DNA of 64,000 nt, taken from NCBI GenBank assembly GCA_032595685.2, contig CP159373.1, positions 2,972,193 through 3,036,192 of the forward strand, read 5' to 3'. The DNA comes from Candidatus Electrothrix aestuarii. Its GTDB lineage: Bacteria > Desulfobacterota > Desulfobulbia > Desulfobulbales > Desulfobulbaceae. The notes beneath the pieces are model-generated. The model saw nothing but the letters and a program-made list of their open reading frames with translations. It searched no databases and was not told where the DNA came from. Positions 17,326 to 28,835 of this stretch are shown one piece after another; position 1 is the stretch's first letter; every line of letters starts with the position of its first letter. The translations under genes were made by a program, and so were the position numbers.

Positions 17326-18486
17326 ATGAACAAAAACTTGATTGTCACCATCTTTGTTCCTTCAACCGCACAGGGAAAAAGAGGGAAAATCGGCACTGGT
17401 TATCCTGTAGCAGGGAATTTGATTTTGACCTCCCGCCATGTAATGGATGAGGGGAGTGGAGAGATTCAAGTCCGGTGGCACTATTTTACAGATGAAGATG
17501 CTCCAGACAATGGATGGATACCGTTGACAGCAGACGACATTGTCTGGAAGGGTGAGAAGGAACTGGATGCCGTTTTGCTCCGCTGTCCTCGACCTAAAAA
17601 GGCGCAGTGGGAAGGATGGGGCAAGATTATCAATACAGAACCTAATCAACACGATAAATGGCACAGTCTCGGATTTTCCAGAGCTACTCAATACAACAAT
17701 CTGCGAGAACCTGACAATGTCAGCGGCACCATTGAGTCAATGGCTGGCCGGGCAGATCACTTTGAACTCACTGTTAACTGTCCTCCTGAAGAGCTTGAGA
17801 TGTGGCAAGGCGTATCCGGGATGCCGGTATTTGTCGATAAAGAAATTCTGGGGGTAGTTCGTTATGTACCGGATAATTTTAAAAGTAGCAAGCTGTATGC
17901 TGTTCCAAGCTGGAAGATGTTTGAAAATGAAAAATTTCGAAAATTAATCAGTGTGTTTCAGAGGAATTCGATCACGAAAATTATCAAAAATATTGAGGGA
18001 CTATTTGAAAGAAACGTTAATGAAGATGCTCTAAGAAAGTTGGTTTCATTATGCACAAACGAGAAGAGATGTGAAAGATTTTATGGACATGCTGAAAAAG
18101 TTCTCGGAAAATATAACAAATTGAAAGAGAATGAAGAGAATGAAAATAACGCAAGTTACGAATTAAGTTTAAATAAAATAGAGCTGCAAAAAAATCATAT
18201 TTCTTCACTACTATTACTTGTTGAAATGAAAATATTTTTCAAGGGAGAATCTGCAAATTTAACGTATAAGAAAGAAGCTCTTCGTTTGGAAAAGGAGTAT
18301 AACAGATTGTATAAGAGAAAGATAAAAATAGAGGATGAGTTGAATTTGAACAGAGATCCAAATAATACTGCGCAAATAAAAAATATTTTGGAATGCTTAC
18401 ATCAAACAATGAAATACTTACGTCAAACAATAGATTCCATTTTTACTTTAATTGAAGAAGAAATGCCAAACGGTGAAAGAGTATGA
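17326..18486 (+). CDS. Trypsin-like serine protease with C-terminal helical adaptor-like region
   Basis: 386 residues. Residues 1-215 form a chymotrypsin-fold protease with a full triad: His38 in SRHVM, Asp81 in ELDAVLL and Ser164 in GVSGMPV. There is no signal peptide, so it acts in the cytoplasm. Residues ~220-386 are charged and helical, and contain a helix-turn-helix stretch (EKEYNRLYKRK...LNLNRDP...ILECLHQ) that resembles by eye the N-terminus of the next protein. The gene overlaps the STAND gene by four bases (ATGA), so the two are translationally coupled. Inference: the protease is the effector, recruited or activated by the NTPase through the helical regions. The tail is more AT-rich than the protease domain. 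Confidence 0.85.
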   Translation: MNKNLIVTIFVPSTAQGKRGKIGTGYPVAGNLILTSRHVMDEGSGEIQVRWHYFTDEDAPDNGWIPLTADDIVWKGEKELDAVLLRCPRPKKAQWEGWGKIINTEPNQHDKWHSLGFSRATQYNNLREPDNVSGTIESMAGRADHFELTVNCPPEELEMWQGVSGMPVFVDKEILGVVRYVPDNFKSSKLYAVPSWKMFENEKFRKLISVFQRNSITKIIKNIEGLFERNVNEDALRKLVSLCTNEKRCERFYGHAEKVLGKYNKLKENEENENNASYELSLNKIELQKNHISSLLLLVEMKIFFKGESANLTYKKEALRLEKEYNRLYKRKIKIEDELNLNRDPNNTAQIKNILECLHQTMKYLRQTIDSIFTLIEEEMPNGERV

Positions 18487-21400
18487 GTGAACAGAACATA
18501 CTGCGATATGCCAGAGAAGAAGCCGAACTCCTTCGCAAACGAGCTTGGGATTTAATTGACCGTTTGGATAAGTTGGAAAGTCAGCTCAATATATCTGTCG
18601 ATGCGGATGAAAGCAGTTCTCTGAAAATTCGTATTAATAATACTCGTGACTTGTTGGAGAATTACGAGGAGAAATATATAGCAATGTGCGGGAAAGCCGG
18701 TATTTCCCCGGAAATTTTAAGCCGTAGCGAATCTGATCGTGATTCAGGCCATAAGATAAAAAAAGATCAGAAAGGTAAGCTGCCACAGTTATTTCTTGTT
18801 CCTCCCCGTAATCCAAGGTTTGTGGGTAGGAAGAACGAACTCCGAATATTTATTGATCAAGTAATAAAGTTGGAAGACGGAGCCTTTGCCATTTGCGGGG
18901 TCAAAGGAATCGGTGGTATCGGTAAGACCGAAATAGCCAAAGAGGTCTGTTATATATTCCAGGAGACATGGAAAGAACAGCCCAAGTTGGCGGAAAATTT
19001 GGCTGATCTTTTGAGCCAAAGAAAAGGCGGCTTTTTTCAGGACGGTATCTTATGGATACAGTTTGACCCAGAACAACAAAACCCGATGTCCTTGACAAAA
19101 GAGTTAAGCGGTCAGTTGACGAGTCAGCACCCCGATATTTTCAACAAAAAAATTAAGTTGGATGAACTGGCGGATCTGCTGGCTGGCAGAGACCTTTTAA
19201 TGGTGATGGACAGTGTGGAGCAGAACATGCGCACCTTTAATTATGTGCTGGAACGTTTCAAAGGTCGCTTCCCTTTGCTCATCACTAGCCGGCGTGCTAT
19301 TCCCGGCATCAAAAGCGAAGAAATTAATGTTCTTAATGTTCTCGAACCGGAGGACGCCGAGACTTTATTTCTTTGCCATTTGGAAAACCAGAAACTTACT
19401 GAAAAAGACCGAGAAACAGTACGAAAACTTTGCGATCTGCTATGTTATTATCCCTTGCTCATCAAGATCATTGCCTCACGGGTGAAGGCGGGAACCAGTA
19501 ATCTGGCCGAGATTTTTGAAACATACAAAGAGAACCCCCTTCGCCTGCTGGATGAATCCAACAGCAGTGCATCCATTGATCAGCGTCATATTGATGTCCG
19601 CACCTGTTTCATGACGTCGTTTAACAGCTTGAATAAAAAGGAGCAGCATGTTTTTCGTCATACCTCCTTGTTTAATAATTCCTTTACCATTGAGGAACTG
19701 GCAATACTGCTGGGTGATGGTATTAAGAAACCAAAAACGGCTGAGATCGAAGAACTGGGTGAGATCGTCAGTCGATTTGAGCGGTTATCGTTGATCAACT
19801 GTTTGCATGGCAGTGACGGACAGGAAATTACTTATGAACTTCATCCACTGATGCGGGAATTTGCTTTAGACCAGCTGAAGCAAAAGGAGAAAAAAGAACA
19901 AGAAGAGAAAAGAAAGAAGGAAGGGGAGAATTCAGATTGCCGGGAAGAGAATAGCACTGAAAGAGTCAGAAGTCTTTTGCAGGAATTGCAACAGAAAAGA
20001 AAAGAAAAAATTTTACAGGAGCATCTAAAAAATAAACCTTCTTTAGTGAAACAGGCAATAGATGCTGTGCAGTACTGCGACCAAGTTTTTGACTTTTCAA
20101 CGGTGCTGGAGTTCATGGAAGTCCTTGATGAACCGCTTGCTGGCTTGAGCTATTTGGATGACAGGCTCACCTTGTATAAGTCGGCGAAACGGGCAGTGGT
20201 GGTAGCCGCGCCCGATGATTATGACAAGGCGCACTATTGGAAACAGCTTACTGACATGGAGAAGCAACAGGCTCAGTCAAAAAGTAAGTTTGAATTTGTG
20301 GGGCGAGACAAAGAATTAACCTATTTTGAGGATAAATTCCTTTTTCAGCCCGGCTCTTTTATTTTGAATTTTCATACAAATGGTGAGGGAGGCGTTGGCA
20401 AGACACAACTTCTTCTACAAATGTTGGAACTATGCCGAAGCAGGTATCCCGGTAAAATTATCAGCAGTGATGAGTTAATTGATTTTTATTATACCGAAGC
20501 TCGTTCCAAAGCTGGGATTATTGAACAGGTTATCAGGAGATTGGGCGAGCATCATTTTAAGGGAGTTGTTCAGCAGTTAGAAAAATATCGTCAGACCAAG
20601 GACAGCTCGGAGCGGGAATATCTTCTGGATGATGCAGTAACTGCATTGCGTAAAGATTATGAAGTATTCGCAGCAAAGTCTAAAAAAGATAACTGCACTA
20701 TATTGTTGTTTTTTGATACATACGAGGTCGTTCAGTCTATTGATAAAGAGGAAAAACTGGCGAAACCCACAGATTTTTCCAAATGGCTGGAGAAAGATTT
20801 CTTCCCTGCGTTGCAATCAGATAACACACGGCTTGTTGTTGCTGGCCGTTATCCTCTTCTTGATGTCGCAGGCAAGTTTACTTCAAAAAAAGCTCTTTCA
20901 GTGTTCAGATATAAAGAGGCAGTTGACTTTATGTTTGAGTACCTGAAGATTGCAGAGTTTACCACGGAAGAATATCAAGCTTTTCTGGAAAGATTTCCAG
21001 CTGCTGAAAAGCTGTTGCAAGAGTTTCGATACTCTTTCGGGGCAGATGAAACCGGTATTCGGATATATGAATTTCCCAATGGGTACAGAAAAGAACTCGG
21101 TGAAGAAAGTTGGCATGCCTTAGCAGAAAAGATACCTGCCAACAAAGAGGAAAAACTCCGTGAATGGCTAAAGTTAACTCGGCGCGAACTGCTGACAGTC
21201 GTTCGATTGGCAAGGAGACGTCCGATTTATCTTGCGCTTTTTATGTATTGGTTTCGTTTCAACAAAGGAGGGGACGAACCGAGGAAGTTGGTAAAAGAGG
21301 CACAGAATGCCGGTAAAAATGAGACAGATCGTTTTGAGGAGATTATTCTTAACTGGCTCTGGGAAGATGAAGAAAAGAGGGAATACATTTATTGTATGAC

Positions 21401-24400
21401 CGTGGCCTATCGTCGGATGACCTCAGAGCTTATGCAACATTTAACTGGAGACTCGTCTGAACGTTGCCAAAAGATTTTACTGGAAGATATTCGACATTTT
21501 TCTTTTGTTAAACATAAAGAGGACGCACAGAAGGGAGATGTTGTTCTGCTGCATGATGAGATGCGGGAGCTGATAAAAACAAGATGGCAGAATAAGATTG
21601 ATTCCGATCAGGAAAAAAAAAGGAACATATTAGAAAAAACAATTCATTACTATAAAGAAGGTCTTTTGACGCCGAATTATGTTTTGACAGATTTTTCTTG
21701 CAGCCAACTGGGGCAAGGAAATCTTCTTGAGAGTATTGTCGATAAAGTTAAAGGTATTCAGTCGTTTTTCTTTAAAAGAGACGGTTTTCTTTCAGCACTC
21801 AAGACTGAAACTGAACTGACGAAGGACGAGCTGAATAAGTACTCGCCTGTGTTGGTTAAAGCGGCAAGGCAGGAAGTATTTCAGGAAAGACGAGAAGTGT
21901 ACTTTCCTGAACTTATGGAATATGCCTTTATGGTAAATGCTGACAACGGTGTACAGCTATTCTGTGAGGAATTTGATACAGCAATAGAAGATGGGCGAGT
22001 GGCTTATGCTGGTCTGCTCGGTCGCGAGGCTGATTTTTGTTGCAAAAAGTTCAATGCTTCTGTGTTTGCCAGGCTTGAAGTAGCGTTACGGGATGTGCAG
22101 CATTGTATTGAGGGGAATGAAGTTGATATTTCTCAAGCTCTAGATGTCATCAAGACGGTAAATGATAGACAAAAAGATGATGCATCCTGGGAATTCTCTT
22201 TGCTCTCTGGCAAGTTTAAACTCTGGGAAGGAATAGCCCATTTTTGGAAGGATGAATTTGAAGAGGCCATTTCCCTGCTGAAGAAGGCAAGAGGAGTTTT
22301 TATTGTCCATGAAGGGCAGGAAGACCTGATGTTTCTTGCTGAAAACTGGATAGGCTATACATATTACCGAAAAGCTGATTTTATTGAGGCGGAAAGCTGG
22401 ATGAATCAGAGCCTGAACGGGCTTCTGGCTCTGCTGGAAAAAGAAGTGGAGACCAAGACAAGGAAAAAAAGAAATATCCAGCAGCATATTCAGTATGCCT
22501 ACGGCAACCTTGCCATGTTGAATCGTTACAAAGGGAAGTTTGCTGTATCAATACAATATGCTGAGGTTGCACATCGTATTGTTGAGAGTCTGCCCCGCAA
22601 TAAAAAAGAGATTTTCAGGTCCCTGACTACTATGGCCCATGTTCTTGCTGTTGCCGGGCGCACTATGGACGCTCGTTATTACCTTGAAGAGGCGGAAAAA
22701 ATCTATAAAGAAATACCGGATCGCTTGTTAGGAGGCCGAGTATACAGCAACTTCTGCCATCTTTTTTACGGCACGATGGAGTTTTCCAGTCTTATTGAAT
22801 ATTACAGGGCCGAGGAATTGCATCAGGCTGTAAAAACTTCCCAAGGAAAAAATATACCAGAATATGTTGAGGCTGCGGAGAAAGCAATAGCCCTGCTTGA
22901 GGTCGAGCCTGTATTCCATAAAGAGCTGGCTGATGTTTCTTTCAGTTTGGGTGAGCTGTATATGATGATGCCGCCTGCAAAATTTATAGGGAATAAATGG
23001 TCATCGTTTACAGGGGATAAATGGACATCGGCAGAACAGGCATTTGAAAGAGCACTGTACTCCGCCCGGAAAAGCGGATTTAAATACCGGCTCATTGATA
23101 CGCTGGAACGACTTGTTATCCTCTATTATTTTCAAAGTCAGGCAGGAGACGAACTTCCCCAAGAACAAAAGAAGAGAAGCCGAGAGAAACGGTATCAATA
23201 TCAGAATGAGATAGAGAAAGAGCAAGACAGTCTGCAGCGTCATTCTAACTTAGCTGGTCGTTACGAGCTGACTCTGGGTGATATACATTTTGATAACGCA
23301 CTGGAACTGCTCGAAACTGATGATTTTGCAGCAGGCAACGAACAGCTGGAAAAGGCATTTGATCATTACATCGCGTCAATATTTTATAAGAAGAAATTTA
23401 ACGATGACCAGTATCATCTTATGTTGCGGGTTGTTTACAGCCGTCTGAATACCTTGGTTGATTTGGCATACCCAATCACCTTTCCCCGTCTGGTAAGTCT
23501 TGAGCAGAACAGTCGGCAAGATACGCGGAAAGAACGAAATATTTCAAAGGAGACAATAGGCTGGTTTGAAAATAATCGTTCTCAATGGGAAGATAAGATA
23601 GAAGATTTCAAATGGATATTCGATCAGGTGCTTCTGCTGAAGGAAAGAAAGGTAGAAGAGAAAAAACTGAAAGCACTTGCGGAGGAGGTTACCCGGAATG
23701 AGCGAAAAGGGGAATACTGGAAAGCGGTACTGATAAATAAATGCCTGACCGAACTCTACTGGACGCAGGTAAATACTGTAGCAGATTTTGAAAAGGAACA
23801 ATACCGTGAGCGATTAACCCTTCAGTTGAATCAGCAGAGTCGGTTGTACCGTCTTTTGGGAGATTATTACCATGCTAAACGGTCTTATCAGCGTGCGAGA
23901 AAAATAATCGAAGACATTGAAGCACCTTTGTTAAAGAAAGGGCTGGAAGGTCATACGAATATCATTGAAGGGGAATATCTTTTCCGACGAGGAGAATTCG
24001 GCAAGTTGCTTGAATCCATTGTGGTTGATGAGCTACCGTCGGCCAGAAACAAATTTGAAAAACAGTTTCCCGGTGAATTGCAAAATGCTCGGGATTTATT
24101 TGAAAAAGGTGAGGCTCTGCTGCTGGAAGCTCTGGAGAGTGACCTTGTCAACAAAGGATCCTATCAGCAGAAGCTCTCTGAAGCCTATTTTCAGTTAGGT
24201 GAACTCGTTATGATTCAAGGAGACTTTCCTGAAGCATTTCGATATTTGAAAAAATGCATCAAACTGTGTGAGCAAAGTAGAAATAATTTTCGTCTTGATG
24301 ATGCAAAGCAGAGCTATCTAAGTGCTGTGTATTTTTCAGGGTGTGATGACGATTCGATTTATCAGGAAAAAATTGAACAGGAACTTGAGGAGAAAATCAA

Positions 24401-24794
24401 AGCTGAAAATTATGAATTTCCTTGGGTGGCTGCAAAATTTCGCATAACTCAAGGTGATGTTCTATTCAATAGATATTTTCAGGCAGAAGAACAGAATCAC
24501 CATACAGATTCAGCAGCTTTTGGACGTAAAGATATTGTGGATATGTTCCGTAAATACACAGAAGCCTGTAACTATAAAGCATATTTTAACGAGGCGAGTT
24601 TTGCGGCTGGATTGCGGGTTTTGCGGCGGAGGATAGAGATGCTCCCGGACAGCCGTTCCCTTGATATTCTCAGTGACATTTTCCGCCAGATCTGGCAGGA
24701 CGGCGAGAAGTTATGGGACAAAAAAAAGGAACTGGACAGCATCCTGCAGCTCATCCGCATGAGGAGTTTGGTGTTACAGTATGAAGACCAGTAA
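18483..24794 (+). CDS. Giant STAND protein with two NTPase modules and TPR-like tail
   Basis: 2103 residues. Order: N-terminal helical region ~1-80 (possible effector-associated adaptor); first NB-ARC-type module starting at FVGRKNEL with P-loop GIGGIGKTE (Lys148), Walker B LMVMDSVEQ (Asp243), ITSRR sensor and a winged-helix end (ELHPLMREFAL); a highly charged Lys/Glu linker (~460-520); a second module starting at FVGRDKEL with P-loop GEGGVGKTQ (Lys640), Walker B ILLFFDTYE (Asp745) and a VVAGRYPLL sensor; then about 950 residues of helical, TPR-like repeats. STAND proteins are ligand-gated switches; the tail is the likely sensor and the upstream protease the likely effector. Two complete P-loop modules in one chain is unusual. 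The start overlaps the protease stop by four bases. The frame is fully open. Confidence 0.85.
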   Translation: MSEQNILRYAREEAELLRKRAWDLIDRLDKLESQLNISVDADESSSLKIRINNTRDLLENYEEKYIAMCGKAGISPEILSRSESDRDSGHKIKKDQKGKLPQLFLVPPRNPRFVGRKNELRIFIDQVIKLEDGAFAICGVKGIGGIGKTEIAKEVCYIFQETWKEQPKLAENLADLLSQRKGGFFQDGILWIQFDPEQQNPMSLTKELSGQLTSQHPDIFNKKIKLDELADLLAGRDLLMVMDSVEQNMRTFNYVLERFKGRFPLLITSRRAIPGIKSEEINVLNVLEPEDAETLFLCHLENQKLTEKDRETVRKLCDLLCYYPLLIKIIASRVKAGTSNLAEIFETYKENPLRLLDESNSSASIDQRHIDVRTCFMTSFNSLNKKEQHVFRHTSLFNNSFTIEELAILLGDGIKKPKTAEIEELGEIVSRFERLSLINCLHGSDGQEITYELHPLMREFALDQLKQKEKKEQEEKRKKEGENSDCREENSTERVRSLLQELQQKRKEKILQEHLKNKPSLVKQAIDAVQYCDQVFDFSTVLEFMEVLDEPLAGLSYLDDRLTLYKSAKRAVVVAAPDDYDKAHYWKQLTDMEKQQAQSKSKFEFVGRDKELTYFEDKFLFQPGSFILNFHTNGEGGVGKTQLLLQMLELCRSRYPGKIISSDELIDFYYTEARSKAGIIEQVIRRLGEHHFKGVVQQLEKYRQTKDSSEREYLLDDAVTALRKDYEVFAAKSKKDNCTILLFFDTYEVVQSIDKEEKLAKPTDFSKWLEKDFFPALQSDNTRLVVAGRYPLLDVAGKFTSKKALSVFRYKEAVDFMFEYLKIAEFTTEEYQAFLERFPAAEKLLQEFRYSFGADETGIRIYEFPNGYRKELGEESWHALAEKIPANKEEKLREWLKLTRRELLTVVRLARRRPIYLALFMYWFRFNKGGDEPRKLVKEAQNAGKNETDRFEEIILNWLWEDEEKREYIYCMTVAYRRMTSELMQHLTGDSSERCQKILLEDIRHFSFVKHKEDAQKGDVVLLHDEMRELIKTRWQNKIDSDQEKKRNILEKTIHYYKEGLLTPNYVLTDFSCSQLGQGNLLESIVDKVKGIQSFFFKRDGFLSALKTETELTKDELNKYSPVLVKAARQEVFQERREVYFPELMEYAFMVNADNGVQLFCEEFDTAIEDGRVAYAGLLGREADFCCKKFNASVFARLEVALRDVQHCIEGNEVDISQALDVIKTVNDRQKDDASWEFSLLSGKFKLWEGIAHFWKDEFEEAISLLKKARGVFIVHEGQEDLMFLAENWIGYTYYRKADFIEAESWMNQSLNGLLALLEKEVETKTRKKRNIQQHIQYAYGNLAMLNRYKGKFAVSIQYAEVAHRIVESLPRNKKEIFRSLTTMAHVLAVAGRTMDARYYLEEAEKIYKEIPDRLLGGRVYSNFCHLFYGTMEFSSLIEYYRAEELHQAVKTSQGKNIPEYVEAAEKAIALLEVEPVFHKELADVSFSLGELYMMMPPAKFIGNKWSSFTGDKWTSAEQAFERALYSARKSGFKYRLIDTLERLVILYYFQSQAGDELPQEQKKRSREKRYQYQNEIEKEQDSLQRHSNLAGRYELTLGDIHFDNALELLETDDFAAGNEQLEKAFDHYIASIFYKKKFNDDQYHLMLRVVYSRLNTLVDLAYPITFPRLVSLEQNSRQDTRKERNISKETIGWFENNRSQWEDKIEDFKWIFDQVLLLKERKVEEKKLKALAEEVTRNERKGEYWKAVLINKCLTELYWTQVNTVADFEKEQYRERLTLQLNQQSRLYRLLGDYYHAKRSYQRARKIIEDIEAPLLKKGLEGHTNIIEGEYLFRRGEFGKLLESIVVDELPSARNKFEKQFPGELQNARDLFEKGEALLLEALESDLVNKGSYQQKLSEAYFQLGELVMIQGDFPEAFRYLKKCIKLCEQSRNNFRLDDAKQSYLSAVYFSGCDDDSIYQEKIEQELEEKIKAENYEFPWVAAKFRITQGDVLFNRYFQAEEQNHHTDSAAFGRKDIVDMFRKYTEACNYKAYFNEASFAAGLRVLRRRIEMLPDSRSLDILSDIFRQIWQDGEKLWDKKKELDSILQLIRMRSLVLQYEDQ

Positions 24795-25605
24795 GAGAAA
24801 AACAACCAAACAATGACCCCGCTTATTCGGCATAACCGTAACCGACCTGTTCACAGGTTCACCCTACCGCGTTGAACTGGAAAAAGACCTGTCCCTGAAA
24901 CAGCAGTTCGTGGATGTGGTGATTATTGAACGGGAAGAAGGCGAACCTCCTGCTGACCTGCCCGACGGGCTGGACAACCTGGGACCGCATAACATCCTGA
25001 GCTTCAAATCCCATCAGGAACCCTTCACCCCGTGGGCCTGCGACGAGCTGCTGGGACATTATGTCAATTATCGCAAACAGGCAAGTCCGTCAATGGATAA
25101 TCTGCTGCCATCTGAAGATTTCAGATTGTACGCCGTGGCAGCAAGATACCCGGAAAAGCTGGCCCGGAAAGTACAGTTGCATGAACATGCCCCAGGAGTG
25201 TATGATTTTATATGGGCAAGTCGTTCTGTCCGCCTGATTGTTACGGGCCGTGTGGCGCAGGCAAAACGAAACGCTGTCTGGGAGCTGTTCAGCGGGATTC
25301 CTGAACGTGTTGCGCACGGTGCATCCGGGTATGCATGGCGCACGGAAGGGTTGAGCAGCGTTATCTCCACTTTATATACCCATTACCGCTTGGAGGGAAT
25401 TCAAATGCCGTATACTGTAAAAGATTATTTTCGTGAGGTTACCCTGGAGCATCTTGACACTCTGACATTGGAGGAACGACTCCGGGGATTTTCCAAGGAG
25501 GAACTCCTTAAATATTTTTTCTCTGATGAAAGCGGAGGCAAAATTGATGAGGAACAAATTAAGCTCTACATTCAGCGGATTCAGCAAAAAGAATCAAAAA
25601 AGTAG
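24781..25605 (+). pseudogene. Rpn-like/PD-(D/E)xK-related gene, apparently broken by an early TGA
   Basis: The long frame encodes FGITVTDLFTGSPYRVE..., FVDVVIIEREEG, HNILSFKSHQEPF and a C-terminal TLEERLRGFSKEELLKYF tail of the kind found behind Rpn/PD-(D/E)xK proteins. The only ATG upstream of the conserved N-terminus is at 24781, overlapping the end of the STAND gene, but it meets an in-frame TGA at 24814-24816. The next start, a GTG at 24910, would remove the first conserved ~30 residues. So either it is a pseudogene or it begins at a poor start. An internal GGAGGG before ATG at 25405 could still express the last ~66 residues alone. Confidence 0.5.
25378..25532 (+). repeat. Direct repeat of the 3' module, copy 1
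   Basis: About 155 bases beginning ACCCATTACCGC and spanning GGAGGG-ATG-MPYTVKDY... recur at 25673-25827, diverging towards the 3' end. Copy 1 lies inside the broken Rpn-like gene. Confidence 0.8.
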
Positions 25606-25672
25606 CAGGCTGTACGATGTGGTCGGCGGCATGGCAGTCAGAGAGACTAAGCAGCAGCATCTCGCCTAAACT

Positions 25673-25827
25673 ACCCATTACCGCCTGGAGGGAATTCAAA
25701 TGCCATATACTGTAAAAGATTATTTGCGTGAAGTTACCTTGGACAACCTTGATACTCTGACCCCGGAGGAACGTCTCCGGGGAATTTCTCTGGAGGAAGG
25801 TCTGAAATACTTCTTCCCTGATGAATC
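25673..25827 (+). repeat. Direct repeat of the 3' module, copy 2
   Basis: Second copy of the module at 25378-25532, preceded by unrelated sequence (25606-25672), so only the 3' part of the ancestral gene was duplicated or survived. Confidence 0.8.
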
Positions 25828-25897
25828 GGAAGAAAAAAAGCGTACTATTTTGCAAAAGCTGCTGAAAGAAGAACAGAATAATGGAAAAAAAGAGTAA
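25700..25897 (+). CDS. Small protein equal to a stand-alone Rpn-like C-terminal module
   Basis: 65 residues (MPYTVKDYLREV..., TPEERLRGISLEEGLKYF..., charged tail). It corresponds to the C-terminal module of the preceding broken gene but has its own GGAGGG ribosome-binding site seven bases before the ATG. The EERLRG-type segments resemble the short repeats that end many Rpn and Uma2-type proteins. It may be expressed alone, or be a relic. No function can be given. Confidence 0.5.
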   Translation: MPYTVKDYLREVTLDNLDTLTPEERLRGISLEEGLKYFFPDESEEKKRTILQKLLKEEQNNGKKE

Positions 25898-25933: not shown

Positions 25934-26107
25934 ATGAAAAACAATAAAACAGTATCGCAGCAGTTTTCCCTGTCCTTTTACACCTTGTCGGAAACACAGC
26001 AGCCTCGCATAAAAGTATCTTTGACCGGCAATAATGGTGACGTAGCTGCTCAGAAGAATGTATCTGGACAGGAACGAAAGAATATTTTTGCCTTAGGCAG
26101 TCACTGA
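25934..26107 (+). CDS. Small peptide ORF A, candidate RiPP precursor
   Basis: 57 residues, not previously named as far as I can tell: starts MKNNKTVS and ends ERKNIFALGSH. The end has the same pattern as peptide B (basic residue, Lys, x, Ile/Leu, Phe/Tyr, Ala-Leu-Gly-Ser, polar residue), and both start with MK..KT.S. The two lie in tandem before a radical SAM/SPASM gene with a PqqD-like tail, which fits precursor peptides of a ribosomally made, modified product. The conserved end would be the core. No strong ribosome-binding site is seen. Confidence 0.5.
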   Translation: MKNNKTVSQQFSLSFYTLSETQQPRIKVSLTGNNGDVAAQKNVSGQERKNIFALGSH

Positions 26108-26129
26108 TTGTGCGGGAGAAGAAGTCAGA

Positions 26130-26288
26130 ATGAAAAAGACAAAGACCGAAAGCTACCTGCAAGCCTATTATGGTTCAGATCAGGCTAGTCCATGTGCTGT
26201 GCGTGTGATCCTGAACAAATCTGGGCGACCTGCGTTGAAGGAACAACAGAAGAAAAGAAAGGGCCTGTATGCACTGGGCAGCAACTAA
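26130..26288 (+). CDS. Small peptide ORF B, candidate RiPP precursor
   Basis: 52 residues: starts MKKTKTESYLQ and ends KKRKGLYALGSN. It shares its start and C-terminal ALGS pattern with peptide A 22 bases upstream while the middle differs, as expected for leader/core precursors. GCGGGAGAAG upstream of the ATG at 26130 is a usable ribosome-binding site. It stops 17 bases before the preferred start of the radical SAM gene and overlaps, in another frame, the extended start of that gene, arguing that the extension is not used. Confidence 0.55.
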   Translation: MKKTKTESYLQAYYGSDQASPCAVRVILNKSGRPALKEQQKKRKGLYALGSN

Positions 26289-26305
26289 GCACAATCATAA
26301 AACCC

Positions 26306-27523
26306 ATGCTCTTCCCCTCAGCCCCCCTGTCCTACGCCGTAGAACTCACCTACGCCTGCAACAACTCCTGCACCGGCTGTGCCAATGTCTGGGGAACCCG
26401 CCGCCAACAGACCCTGACTAATTGGCGAAACCTCTTTGATCGCATTGCCCCGCCTGAAGACCCCAGTAAATATGCCGAACTCATCCGCCTGACCGGCGGT
26501 GAACCAACCCTCCATCCTGAATTGACCCAAATCGTTGAACACATTGATTCTCTAGGCATCGCCCATGTCCTGTTTACCAACGGACGTTGGACCGATCCTG
26601 CCTCTATCATCGACCTGTATCAAGGCCAGAAAAACTGCCTGGGTATGCTTGTCAGCCTGCACGGAAGCACCCCTGCTGCCCATAATACTTTGGTAGGGGA
26701 TACCAACGCCTTTGGACAAACCTGTGCAAATATTCGTCTGGCCGCTGATGCCGGGATAGAGGTCTTTACCAATACCATCCTGACTAAAGACAGCTGCGAA
26801 CAGGTTCAAGAGATCATCCACCTTTCCCAGGAACTTGGTGCGGAATACGCAGTGTTCAATCGTTTTTTGGGAGGAGATAACCCGTATCAACCTGGCAAAG
26901 AGCAGCTTCGGCAAGCTGTCTTGCTGATTGAAAACCTGCACAGACAGGGCGTATCCTGCCGAATCGGCAACTGTGTGCCAAAATGCTTTGCCCCCAATTC
27001 CACCGAAGGCTCCAATGCAGGAATAGAGCATTGTGCGATTTCGCCAGAAGGTCTTGTCCGCCCGGATAATCTCACCAGCACCGTGTTCGGAAATATTTTT
27101 GAACAACCTATCACAGAGATTTGGCAATCGGAACAGGCGCAACTGTACCGACAGCAGATTGCTCCGGCCTGTCTGGAATGTGTTGAGTTATCTCGATGCC
27201 GGGGGGGAGATCGATCTGCCACCCTGGAACAGGGTGAACAACAAGATCCCCTGATGACAGGCCCCATTCAGGAGGCAGAACAGAAACCCATCCATCTGGA
27301 CCCGAGCTGGAAGCCGCTTGCCCGCTTTCGCATCAGGGAGGAACCCTTCGGATACCTGGTAACCCGCTATAATTGGTCAGTACCGGTAGCGTATGAAGCA
27401 AAACCTGTTCTGGATGCAGTGAATGGAGAGTATACCCTGGCAGAAATTCACGAACGTTTCGGAGATGAGGCCCTGGAGCTGATCGGGCGCTTGTACCAGG
27501 AGGATTGTTTGGGCTTTGAATAA
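26306..27523 (+). CDS. Radical SAM/SPASM peptide-modifying enzyme with PqqD-like C-terminal domain
   Basis: 405 residues. The radical SAM cluster is C18-x3-C22-x2-C25 (TYACNNSCTGCAN), followed by LTGGEPTLHPEL (SAM-binding GGE motif). The C-terminal SPASM-like region has cysteines in GNCVPKC, HCAISPEG and CLECVELSRCRGG, ligands for auxiliary clusters. The last ~75 residues (FRIREEPFGYLVTRYN... VLDAVNGEYTLAEIHERFG) resemble PqqD, the RiPP recognition element that binds leader peptides. The ATG at 26306 is chosen because an upstream start at 26192 would overlap peptide B. Likely substrates are peptides A and B. The chemistry (for example Lys/Tyr/Phe crosslinking) cannot be told. Its 3' end is part of a 204-bp repeat. 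Confidence 0.85.
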   Translation: MLFPSAPLSYAVELTYACNNSCTGCANVWGTRRQQTLTNWRNLFDRIAPPEDPSKYAELIRLTGGEPTLHPELTQIVEHIDSLGIAHVLFTNGRWTDPASIIDLYQGQKNCLGMLVSLHGSTPAAHNTLVGDTNAFGQTCANIRLAADAGIEVFTNTILTKDSCEQVQEIIHLSQELGAEYAVFNRFLGGDNPYQPGKEQLRQAVLLIENLHRQGVSCRIGNCVPKCFAPNSTEGSNAGIEHCAISPEGLVRPDNLTSTVFGNIFEQPITEIWQSEQAQLYRQQIAPACLECVELSRCRGGDRSATLEQGEQQDPLMTGPIQEAEQKPIHLDPSWKPLARFRIREEPFGYLVTRYNWSVPVAYEAKPVLDAVNGEYTLAEIHERFGDEALELIGRLYQEDCLGFE

Positions 27524-27604
27524 AAGGTAAGGGCAGGACTGCTGGCCACGGCCTATGTCCTGTTGTTTGCAGTAAGGTTACTCCTTCCCCATCACCTGCC
27601 TGAA
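27401..27604 (+). repeat. 204-bp direct repeat, left copy
   Basis: Covers the last ~40 codons of the radical SAM gene, the intergenic stretch and the 3' tail of a minus-strand frame. The right copy is at 28632-28835, same length with no gaps and about 13 mismatches by eye. The repeats bracket the HEPN-MNT pair. Confidence 0.9.
27534..27568. terminator. Possible terminator between convergent frames
   Basis: Outer stem CAGGAC/GTCCTG (27534-27539, 27557-27562) with inner GGCC/GGCC pairing, then TTGTTT. It is repeated at 28765-28799, where one inner C-to-T change keeps the pairing as a G-U pair. It sits between convergent genes in both places. Confidence 0.4.
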
Positions 27605-27899: not shown

Positions 27900-28286
27900 A
27901 TGACTGATCAAGTACAATACTGGGTTGAATTGTCAGAATATGATATTGAAACAGCCCAAGCTATGCTGCAAAGCGGGCGGTATCTTTATGTCGGCTTTAT
28001 GGCCCATCAGTCAGTTGAAAAGATACTCAAAGCCTGTTATGTGAAAGATAACGGCAAACCGGCTCCTTTTTCCCACAGTTTGTCTTACCTCGCAAAGAAG
28101 GCGGACATTTATGATGCTTTTTCAGAGAACCAGAAACTTTTTATCGATATGCTCGAACCGATGAATATTGAGTGCAGATACCCGACGCACAAAGAGCAGC
28201 TATTGAGAAGTTTGACGGAAGAACGCTGTAAAGAGATACTTGCAAATGCAAAGGAACTGCAACAATGGATAAAGAAGAAGTTATAA
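27900..28286 (+). CDS. HEPN-domain protein of a HEPN-MNT module
   Basis: 128 residues, all-helical, with the HEPN signature AHQSVEKILKACY near residue 38 and CRYPTHKEQ near residue 98. HEPN proteins of two-gene systems are usually RNase toxins neutralised by the partner nucleotidyltransferase. The R...H spacing here (RYPTH) is shorter than the classic Rx4-6H, so it belongs to the RYP-type subgroup whose toxicity is less certain. It overlaps the MNT gene by 22 bases. Ribosome-binding signals before the ATG are weak; TATAAT at 27891-27896 is too close to the start to serve a normal leader. Confidence 0.8.
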   Translation: MTDQVQYWVELSEYDIETAQAMLQSGRYLYVGFMAHQSVEKILKACYVKDNGKPAPFSHSLSYLAKKADIYDAFSENQKLFIDMLEPMNIECRYPTHKEQLLRSLTEERCKEILANAKELQQWIKKKL

Positions 28287-28573
28287 GGAAACTGGTACAG
28301 TACAAGCGTCTCCTGTCACAATATATGTCGTTCGATAAAATGATGCTCTTCGGTTCTTATGCGCGGGGAACTCAACGGGAAGACAGCGATGTGGATGTCG
28401 CGATAATAGTTGATGAGATGCAGGGGGATTATTTTTCCACAAGACCGCTGCTCTGGAGAATCAGGAGAGAAGTGGATGACAGGATTGAACCGGTTCTTCT
28501 CGAAACAAAACATGACCAAGGCGGTTTTCTGAAGGAAATAATGAAAAACGGAATTCTGATACAGGATTCCTGA
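28265..28573 (+). CDS. MNT-domain minimal nucleotidyltransferase
   Basis: 102 residues with the polymerase-beta fold motif GSYARG...DSDVDVAI (metal-binding aspartates in SDVDVAI). In HEPN-MNT modules this protein is the antitoxin that nucleotidylates the HEPN toxin. It starts inside the end of the HEPN gene, showing coupled expression. The pair is bracketed by a 204-bp direct repeat, suggesting arrival by insertion or duplication. Confidence 0.85.
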   Translation: MDKEEVIRKLVQYKRLLSQYMSFDKMMLFGSYARGTQREDSDVDVAIIVDEMQGDYFSTRPLLWRIRREVDDRIEPVLLETKHDQGGFLKEIMKNGILIQDS

Positions 28574-28631: not shown

Positions 28632-28835
28632 AAATCTGTTTTGGATGCAGTGAATGGAGAGTATACTCTGGCAGAAATTCAGGAGCGCTTCGGGGATGGG
28701 GCCCTGGAACTGATCGGGCGCTTGTACCAGGAAGATTGTTTGGGCTTTGAATAAAAGGTAAGGGCAGGACTGCTGGTCACGGCCTACGTCCTGTTGTTTG
28801 CAGTAAGGTTACTCCTTCCCCATCACCTGTCTGAA
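28632..28835 (+). repeat. 204-bp direct repeat, right copy
   Basis: Contains a decayed copy of the radical SAM C-terminus (VLDAVNGEYTLAEIQERFG...DCLGFE and stop) without the rest of that gene, then the intergenic hairpin and the first 27 bases of the hybrid kinase 3' end. See the left copy at 27401-27604. Confidence 0.9.

Follow-up and report, generated by a model that had tools for sequence, protein, structure and literature searches.

A candidate radical SAM RiPP cassette within a STAND ATPase operon of cable bacteria

The closest described analogue of the locus considered here is the module of FxSxx-COOH peptide, FxsB enzyme and AP-ATPase-TPR protein found in actinobacterial VMAP conflict systems (Kaur et al. 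2020, PMC7159879), which follows a similar logic with a different family of proteins. Trypsin- and caspase-type peptidases have been described as partners of STAND proteins (PMC10907252), and triceptide enzymes are known to crosslink aromatic-x-x motifs, in which the aromatic residue of known substrates is F, Y or H (PMC11002830). Among open-licence papers we found none that describes a RiPP linked to a STAND protein in cable bacteria or their relatives.

We examined a stretch of 64,000 nucleotides (hereafter ‘the window’) from the genome of Candidatus Electrothrix aestuarii, which is 5.1 Mb in size and consists of one contig. An earlier note on this DNA had proposed a RiPP locus in which two very small ORFs precede a radical SAM enzyme. 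Our analysis supports that interpretation, and the peptides are probably modified. The features concerned are as follows.

17326..18486, + strand: trypsin-like serine peptidase (386 aa), the first gene of the operon, overlapping the next gene by 4 bases
18483..24794, + strand: STAND-type ATPase-TPR protein (2103 aa), with an NB-ARC domain at 132-334, a second P-loop region at ~604-745 and TPRs (Pfam)
25934..26107, + strand: candidate precursor peptide 1 (57 aa), leader motif FSLSFY, core KNIFALGSH
26130..26288, + strand: candidate precursor peptide 2 (52 aa), leader motif YLQAYY, core KGLYALGSN
26306..27523, + strand: radical SAM/SPASM peptide maturase (405 aa), CxxxCxxC at 18/22/25 (Pfam, alignment, AlphaFold2 and fold search)
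27287..27520, + strand: predicted RiPP recognition element (RRE/PqqD-type) domain of the maturase

The two ORFs and their ALGS endings are present where, and as, they had been described. Both recur 5' of the same enzyme in three other cable bacterium genomes (G001, Ca. Electrothrix gigas and Ca. Electrothrix aarhusensis; loci L023, L024 and L025, respectively), and a further genome, G007 (L028), carries ORF 2 without ORF 1 in that position; because of this recurrence the ORFs are more than chance. Their substitution patterns are those of coding sequence, with pairwise dN/dS values between cable bacterium homologues (Nei-Gojobori) of 0.15-0.33 for ORF 1 and 0.14-0.39 for ORF 2, and with codon position 3 the most changed in nearly all comparisons. 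A profile built from nine peptides matched these loci at E-values of 1e-23 to 1e-26 across 18 related genomes, in which no orphan precursor was found elsewhere (two extra hits, with E-values of 0.03 and 0.07, do not exceed chance level). These comparisons confirm, at the level of sequence, that both are real conserved genes in cable bacteria of the Ca. Electrothrix type.

A profile search yielded further homologues in the order to which Desulfobacterales bacterium HSG2 belongs, and in the Desulfobacterales every full-length enzyme has one small ORF directly 5' of it. The tails of the peptides from the wider family are given here.

HSG2: IKVFALSSSG
G480: KQFALSSGC
G558, copy 1: SSVYGSCN
G558, copy 2: NFYFSSQCGG
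G465: IYMNGQCAG
G003 (a cable bacterium): KTSILRSH

The MK..KT.S start shared by the two window peptides, to which the earlier note had drawn attention, proved not to be a feature of this family; the conserved leader element is instead [FYL]xxx[FYL]Y, which is present in all eight peptide types and is followed 6-13 residues later by a strand-like element in seven of the eight. Shuffle frequencies for the leader motif (product 3.6e-11) are descriptive only, since the motif was defined post hoc from the same sequences. The C-terminal part varies, and ALGS is only the form that this variable core takes in cable bacteria; the G003 core lacks an aromatic residue at the expected place. The search for small ORFs upstream of homologous enzymes that had been proposed as a check returned an ORF with the leader motif directly 5' of every intact full-length homologue found, except in G006, where the enzyme has an RRE yet no recognisable peptide was found at the locus. 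For a distant homologue from G525 neither a peptide nor an RRE was found, and another, from G459, is cut off at a contig end. The picture of the family is drawn from few independent loci. It comprises a small precursor gene with a conserved leader and a distinct core, adjoining the gene of a maturase; the leader is constant, the core varies and the enzyme has a fused, putative leader-binding domain, which together make up what is, judged from sequence, the anatomy of a radical SAM RiPP.

The enzyme follows directly after the two ORFs, as had been noted. Alignment of the homologues identifies ATG 26306, and not ATG 26192, as its start, which they share; a gene beginning at the latter would overlap ORF 2. 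Radical_SAM and SPASM are its only Pfam matches above cut-off. Its closest named relatives are proteins of Ca. Electrothrix gigas, Ca. Electrothrix aarhusensis and a Desulfobulbaceae MAG (81-84% identity). In the Ca. E. aarhusensis copy (L025:11793-13000) the coding sequence is in two frames near residue 335-359, reflecting either a frameshift or an assembly error. SkfB, PqqE and SuiB head the list of solved relatives found by sequence profile, and comparison of the AlphaFold2 model with known folds gave SkfB (Z 26.5 over 278 residues, 3.6 Å), SuiB (25.6) and CteB (23.6), followed by ChlB, PqqE and TigE, with anSME and viperin-type enzymes interspersed. No NCBIfam model matched at its cut-off, all scores lying far below, so the view that this is not a described family stands within NCBIfam. 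Identification as a viperin (pVip) was considered and rejected: the NCBIfam viperin model scored 37.7 of 180 bits over residues 14-114 only, and the PADLOC pVip matches are confined to the radical SAM core.

A Pfam search of the C-terminal domain of the enzyme gave no match, and the domain was therefore folded alone. Its 78 residues formed a confident winged helix in AlphaFold2 (pLDDT 91.5), for which the top structural match is the RRE of PbtF (Z 9.2 over 73 residues, 2.1 Å); ThcOx, lasso B1, TigE, MccB, PqqD and TruD follow lower in the list. The corresponding Foldseek E-values are weak (0.008 at best), and comparable scores were obtained for certain winged helices other than RREs. Assignment as an RRE is a sound reading of a predicted structure, since RREs are frequent among the matches and the other domains of the protein are those of a RiPP maturase. 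The PqqD-like domain that had been suggested from the sequence is borne out as a predicted RRE-type fold, although not as a Pfam match.

The genes upstream of the cassette, a context that the earlier note had missed, place it within a STAND ATPase-TPR operon. The first product has candidate catalytic residues H37 (TSRHV), D81 (LDAVLL) and S164 (GVSGMP), which were assigned by eye; its Pfam match to Trypsin_2 is below threshold (E 0.041), and the PADLOC HamA1 model matches its N-terminal part (E 1.9e-9). No second copy of the STAND ATPase-TPR protein was found in the window's genome with an 839-aa piece as query. Wherever a locus of the family offers enough upstream sequence, the gene 5' of the peptide or enzyme encodes a protein with TPRs and/or a P-loop ATPase; in most cases this is a homologous STAND-type ATPase with TPRs, itself mostly preceded by a smaller ATPase of ~460-510 aa. 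In one of the two G558 loci (copy 1) the STAND gene is split by an insertion, and G006 has the TPR protein first, then the ATPase and then the enzyme. The slot farther upstream is variable, being occupied by the trypsin-like peptidase in the window, in several cable bacteria by proteins for which one or two membrane segments are predicted, and by the following proteins in G558.

L039:12676-14301: TIR-domain protein whose N-terminus is P-loop-like, immediately preceding the ATPase pair (copy 1)
L040:2255-4945: caspase-domain protein, directly before the ATPase pair (copy 2)

These loci thus combine a STAND ATPase that carries a repeat sensor with an effector-type gene, as in STAND conflict systems. 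The enzymes of the window and G007 are 95% identical, whereas their STAND-TPR proteins share only 42-44% identity, a gap that would fit a fast-changing sensor; such a sensor, a swapped effector-type gene and a patchy distribution are typical of conflict systems.

On this basis we consider it probable that the locus is a radical SAM RiPP cassette inside a STAND ATPase conflict operon, and that the modified peptide serves the switch. A stronger form of that reading, which we put forward only tentatively, is that the RiPP is an obligate part (ligand, safety catch or toxin) of an NLR-like STAND immune switch of cable bacteria and related sulfate reducers, with an enzyme clade from which auxiliary cluster I has been lost carrying out undescribed chemistry on a Cys-free aromatic-Ala-Leu-Gly-Ser core.

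The alternative that fares best is a stand-alone RiPP, for example a bacteriocin, a signal or a redox cofactor of the PQQ or mycofactocin type, which merely adjoins the STAND genes or is co-transcribed with them. The enzyme is similar in sequence to PqqE and the mycofactocin maturase, and in the window the STAND gene and peptide 1 are set apart by 1.1 kb of unrelated ORF fragments. Nevertheless, the STAND ATPase-TPR neighbour is kept across enzymes that are just 36-41% identical, and elsewhere the genes overlap, by 11 bases between STAND-TPR and peptide 1 in Ca. E. aarhusensis and by 1 base between peptide and enzyme in G003; nor did we see a transporter or a cofactor-using dehydrogenase in these loci. 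We regard a stand-alone RiPP as unlikely.

The 1.1-kb interval itself contains two ORFs (24910-25897) that share a repeated module (167 bp, 83% identical) and have no Pfam match. L023 has a longer relative; in L025 and L028 it is lacking and the genes abut. On the other side of the cassette, a 204-bp direct repeat (27401-27604 and 28632-28835, 93.6% identical) comprises the 3' end of the enzyme gene and the 3' end of a sensor kinase gene on the opposite strand. A pair of genes resembling a HEPN/MNT toxin-antitoxin system (27900-28573) is inserted between the repeats, and in G007 the junction is the same but the insert is absent.

A second alternative holds that the small proteins are binding partners or adaptors of the STAND complex and that the enzyme acts on another target, such as the STAND protein. 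The enzyme without a peptide in G006 would agree with this, as would a sub-threshold Pfam match of peptide 1 to TCAD3 (ternary complex associated domain 3; E 0.078), but that match is at chance level and is absent in peptide 2. The leader motif, the RRE-type domain and the maturase fold all indicate a substrate and its enzyme instead. So does a second copy of the locus in G007 (L029:8539-9714, minus strand), from which the peptide gene is absent and the N-terminus of the enzyme, including CxxxCxxC, is gone; such joint decay of peptide and catalytic motif is, as far as sequence can indicate, what would be expected of substrate and enzyme. Adaptors are accordingly an improbable reading of these small proteins.

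Two other distant or degraded copies were noted. Just 3' of the enzyme in G006 lies a remnant (L020:1301-1405, minus strand) of an enzyme C-terminus close to that of the window (...RFGDEALGLIGRLYQEDCLGFE), a trace of a second copy that was lost or recombined in that genome. The G525 homologue (L036 / L043:7429-8541, minus strand) follows a STAND-TPR gene and has a 45-residue N-terminal extension. At an E-value of 1e-40 the enzyme was found in no other genome among 395 of the phylum (a sparse draw, in which only the first few candidates per genome were scored); the contig scan for relatives used exact short patterns, which distant relatives would escape. One plasmid match was found, at 26% identity, and viral contigs gave only weak, partial matches.

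The earlier note had also recognised SPASM-type cysteines in the enzyme. CxxxCxxC and the other SPASM cysteines are indeed present, but auxiliary cluster I is predicted to be incomplete, with S236, D254 and D302 in the window enzyme. We take positions 236, 243, 254 and 302 of the family to be the ligands of cluster I, an assignment made by spacing only, as in anSME. All four cysteines are kept in L027, L034, L035 and L038, whereas in the window clade, HSG2, G480 and G003 the residues at the four positions are, in that order along the sequence, S/A, C, D/N and D/E/Y. Each of the intact-cluster loci that have a peptide (three of three) encodes a Cys in the core, while in the degenerate-cluster clade a core Cys occurs in G480 only. 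This pattern, which reflects few events, suggests that thiol chemistry may go with cluster I, and the joint absence of cluster-I and core cysteines in one clade would amount to a natural experiment on the function of the SPASM cluster. That the intact-cluster clade makes thioether (sactipeptide- or ranthipeptide-like) peptides and the cable bacterium enzymes are decayed or inactive is very improbable: the window clade has lost three of the four predicted cluster-I cysteines, one cable bacterium copy lacks CxxxCxxC and one is frameshifted, but the window enzyme retains CxxxCxxC and its other SPASM cysteines, its conservation across several species is 81-95% over 400 residues, and both peptides are under purifying selection.

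Returning to a RiPP cassette that serves a STAND switch, we envisage the following mechanism. The two small genes would encode precursor peptides, whose leader ([FYL]xxx[FYL]Y and the beta-strand after it) would dock on the C-terminal RRE of the enzyme, which would then modify the C-terminal core, aromatic-Ala-Leu-Gly-Ser-His/Asn. Most likely, the side chain of the conserved aromatic residue would react oxidatively, for example to form an aromatic-x-x crosslink. For the STAND ATPase-TPR switch, whose gene lies just upstream, the product would be a ligand, a signal or a toxic output, with a putative role in immunity or cell death, and the trypsin-like partner may cleave the peptide or act as the effector. 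The position of the cassette suggests that a ribosomally made, modified peptide may form part of a bacterial self-defence switch. If so, this would be a radical SAM RiPP family of cable bacteria and their relatives that is tied to NLR-like ATPases, with a context that indicates immunity rather than antibiosis or cofactor synthesis. Coupling of RiPPs to STAND proteins has already been suggested by the actinobacterial FxSxx module, and its occurrence with an independent enzyme family in Desulfobacterota would point to a recurring design, for which peptide, enzyme and ATPases offer a compact set for testing.

Comparison with the FxSxx module illustrates both sides of that relationship. Both have a small, fast-changing protein with a conserved C-terminal motif that includes an aromatic residue and Ser, a radical SAM/SPASM enzyme, a linked AP-ATPase/STAND protein (an NB-ARC-type ATPase with TPRs), and peptidase and TIR partners. 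The window enzyme is not an FxsB, as TIGR04269 (cut-off 370 bits) has no match to it at E 0.001. Unlike the FxSxx peptides, those of the cable bacteria end in aromatic-Ala-Leu-Gly-Ser-x; no MoxR, vWA or VMAP gene or zincin peptidase was seen at the present loci; and, in contrast to the actinobacterial module, the predicted RRE is fused to the C-terminus of the enzyme and the hosts are Desulfobacterota.

Like triceptide precursors, the present cores hold aromatic-x-x motifs (FAL, YAL, HAL, YGS, FSS and YMN), and a crosslink of that type would be our guess for their chemistry. The Leu at the third position of the cable bacterium cores is, however, not among the residues listed for triceptides (PMC11002830), and the enzymes score as no listed NCBIfam family. 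With SkfB, SuiB, CteB and PqqE the enzyme shares the radical SAM/SPASM fold and an RRE (both predicted here), but differs in that its RRE lies at the C-terminus, it is predicted to have lost one auxiliary cluster and the cores of the window clade, except that of G480, are without Cys.

PADLOC models for Avs matched none of the proteins tested. The operon nonetheless resembles conflict systems described for multicellular bacteria, and it shares with antiviral STAND proteins (Avs/NLR-like) a STAND-type ATPase with a TPR region and effector-type genes of the TIR, caspase and trypsin-like classes. It differs from them in that its putative effectors are separate genes and a candidate RiPP cassette is coupled to the ATPase.
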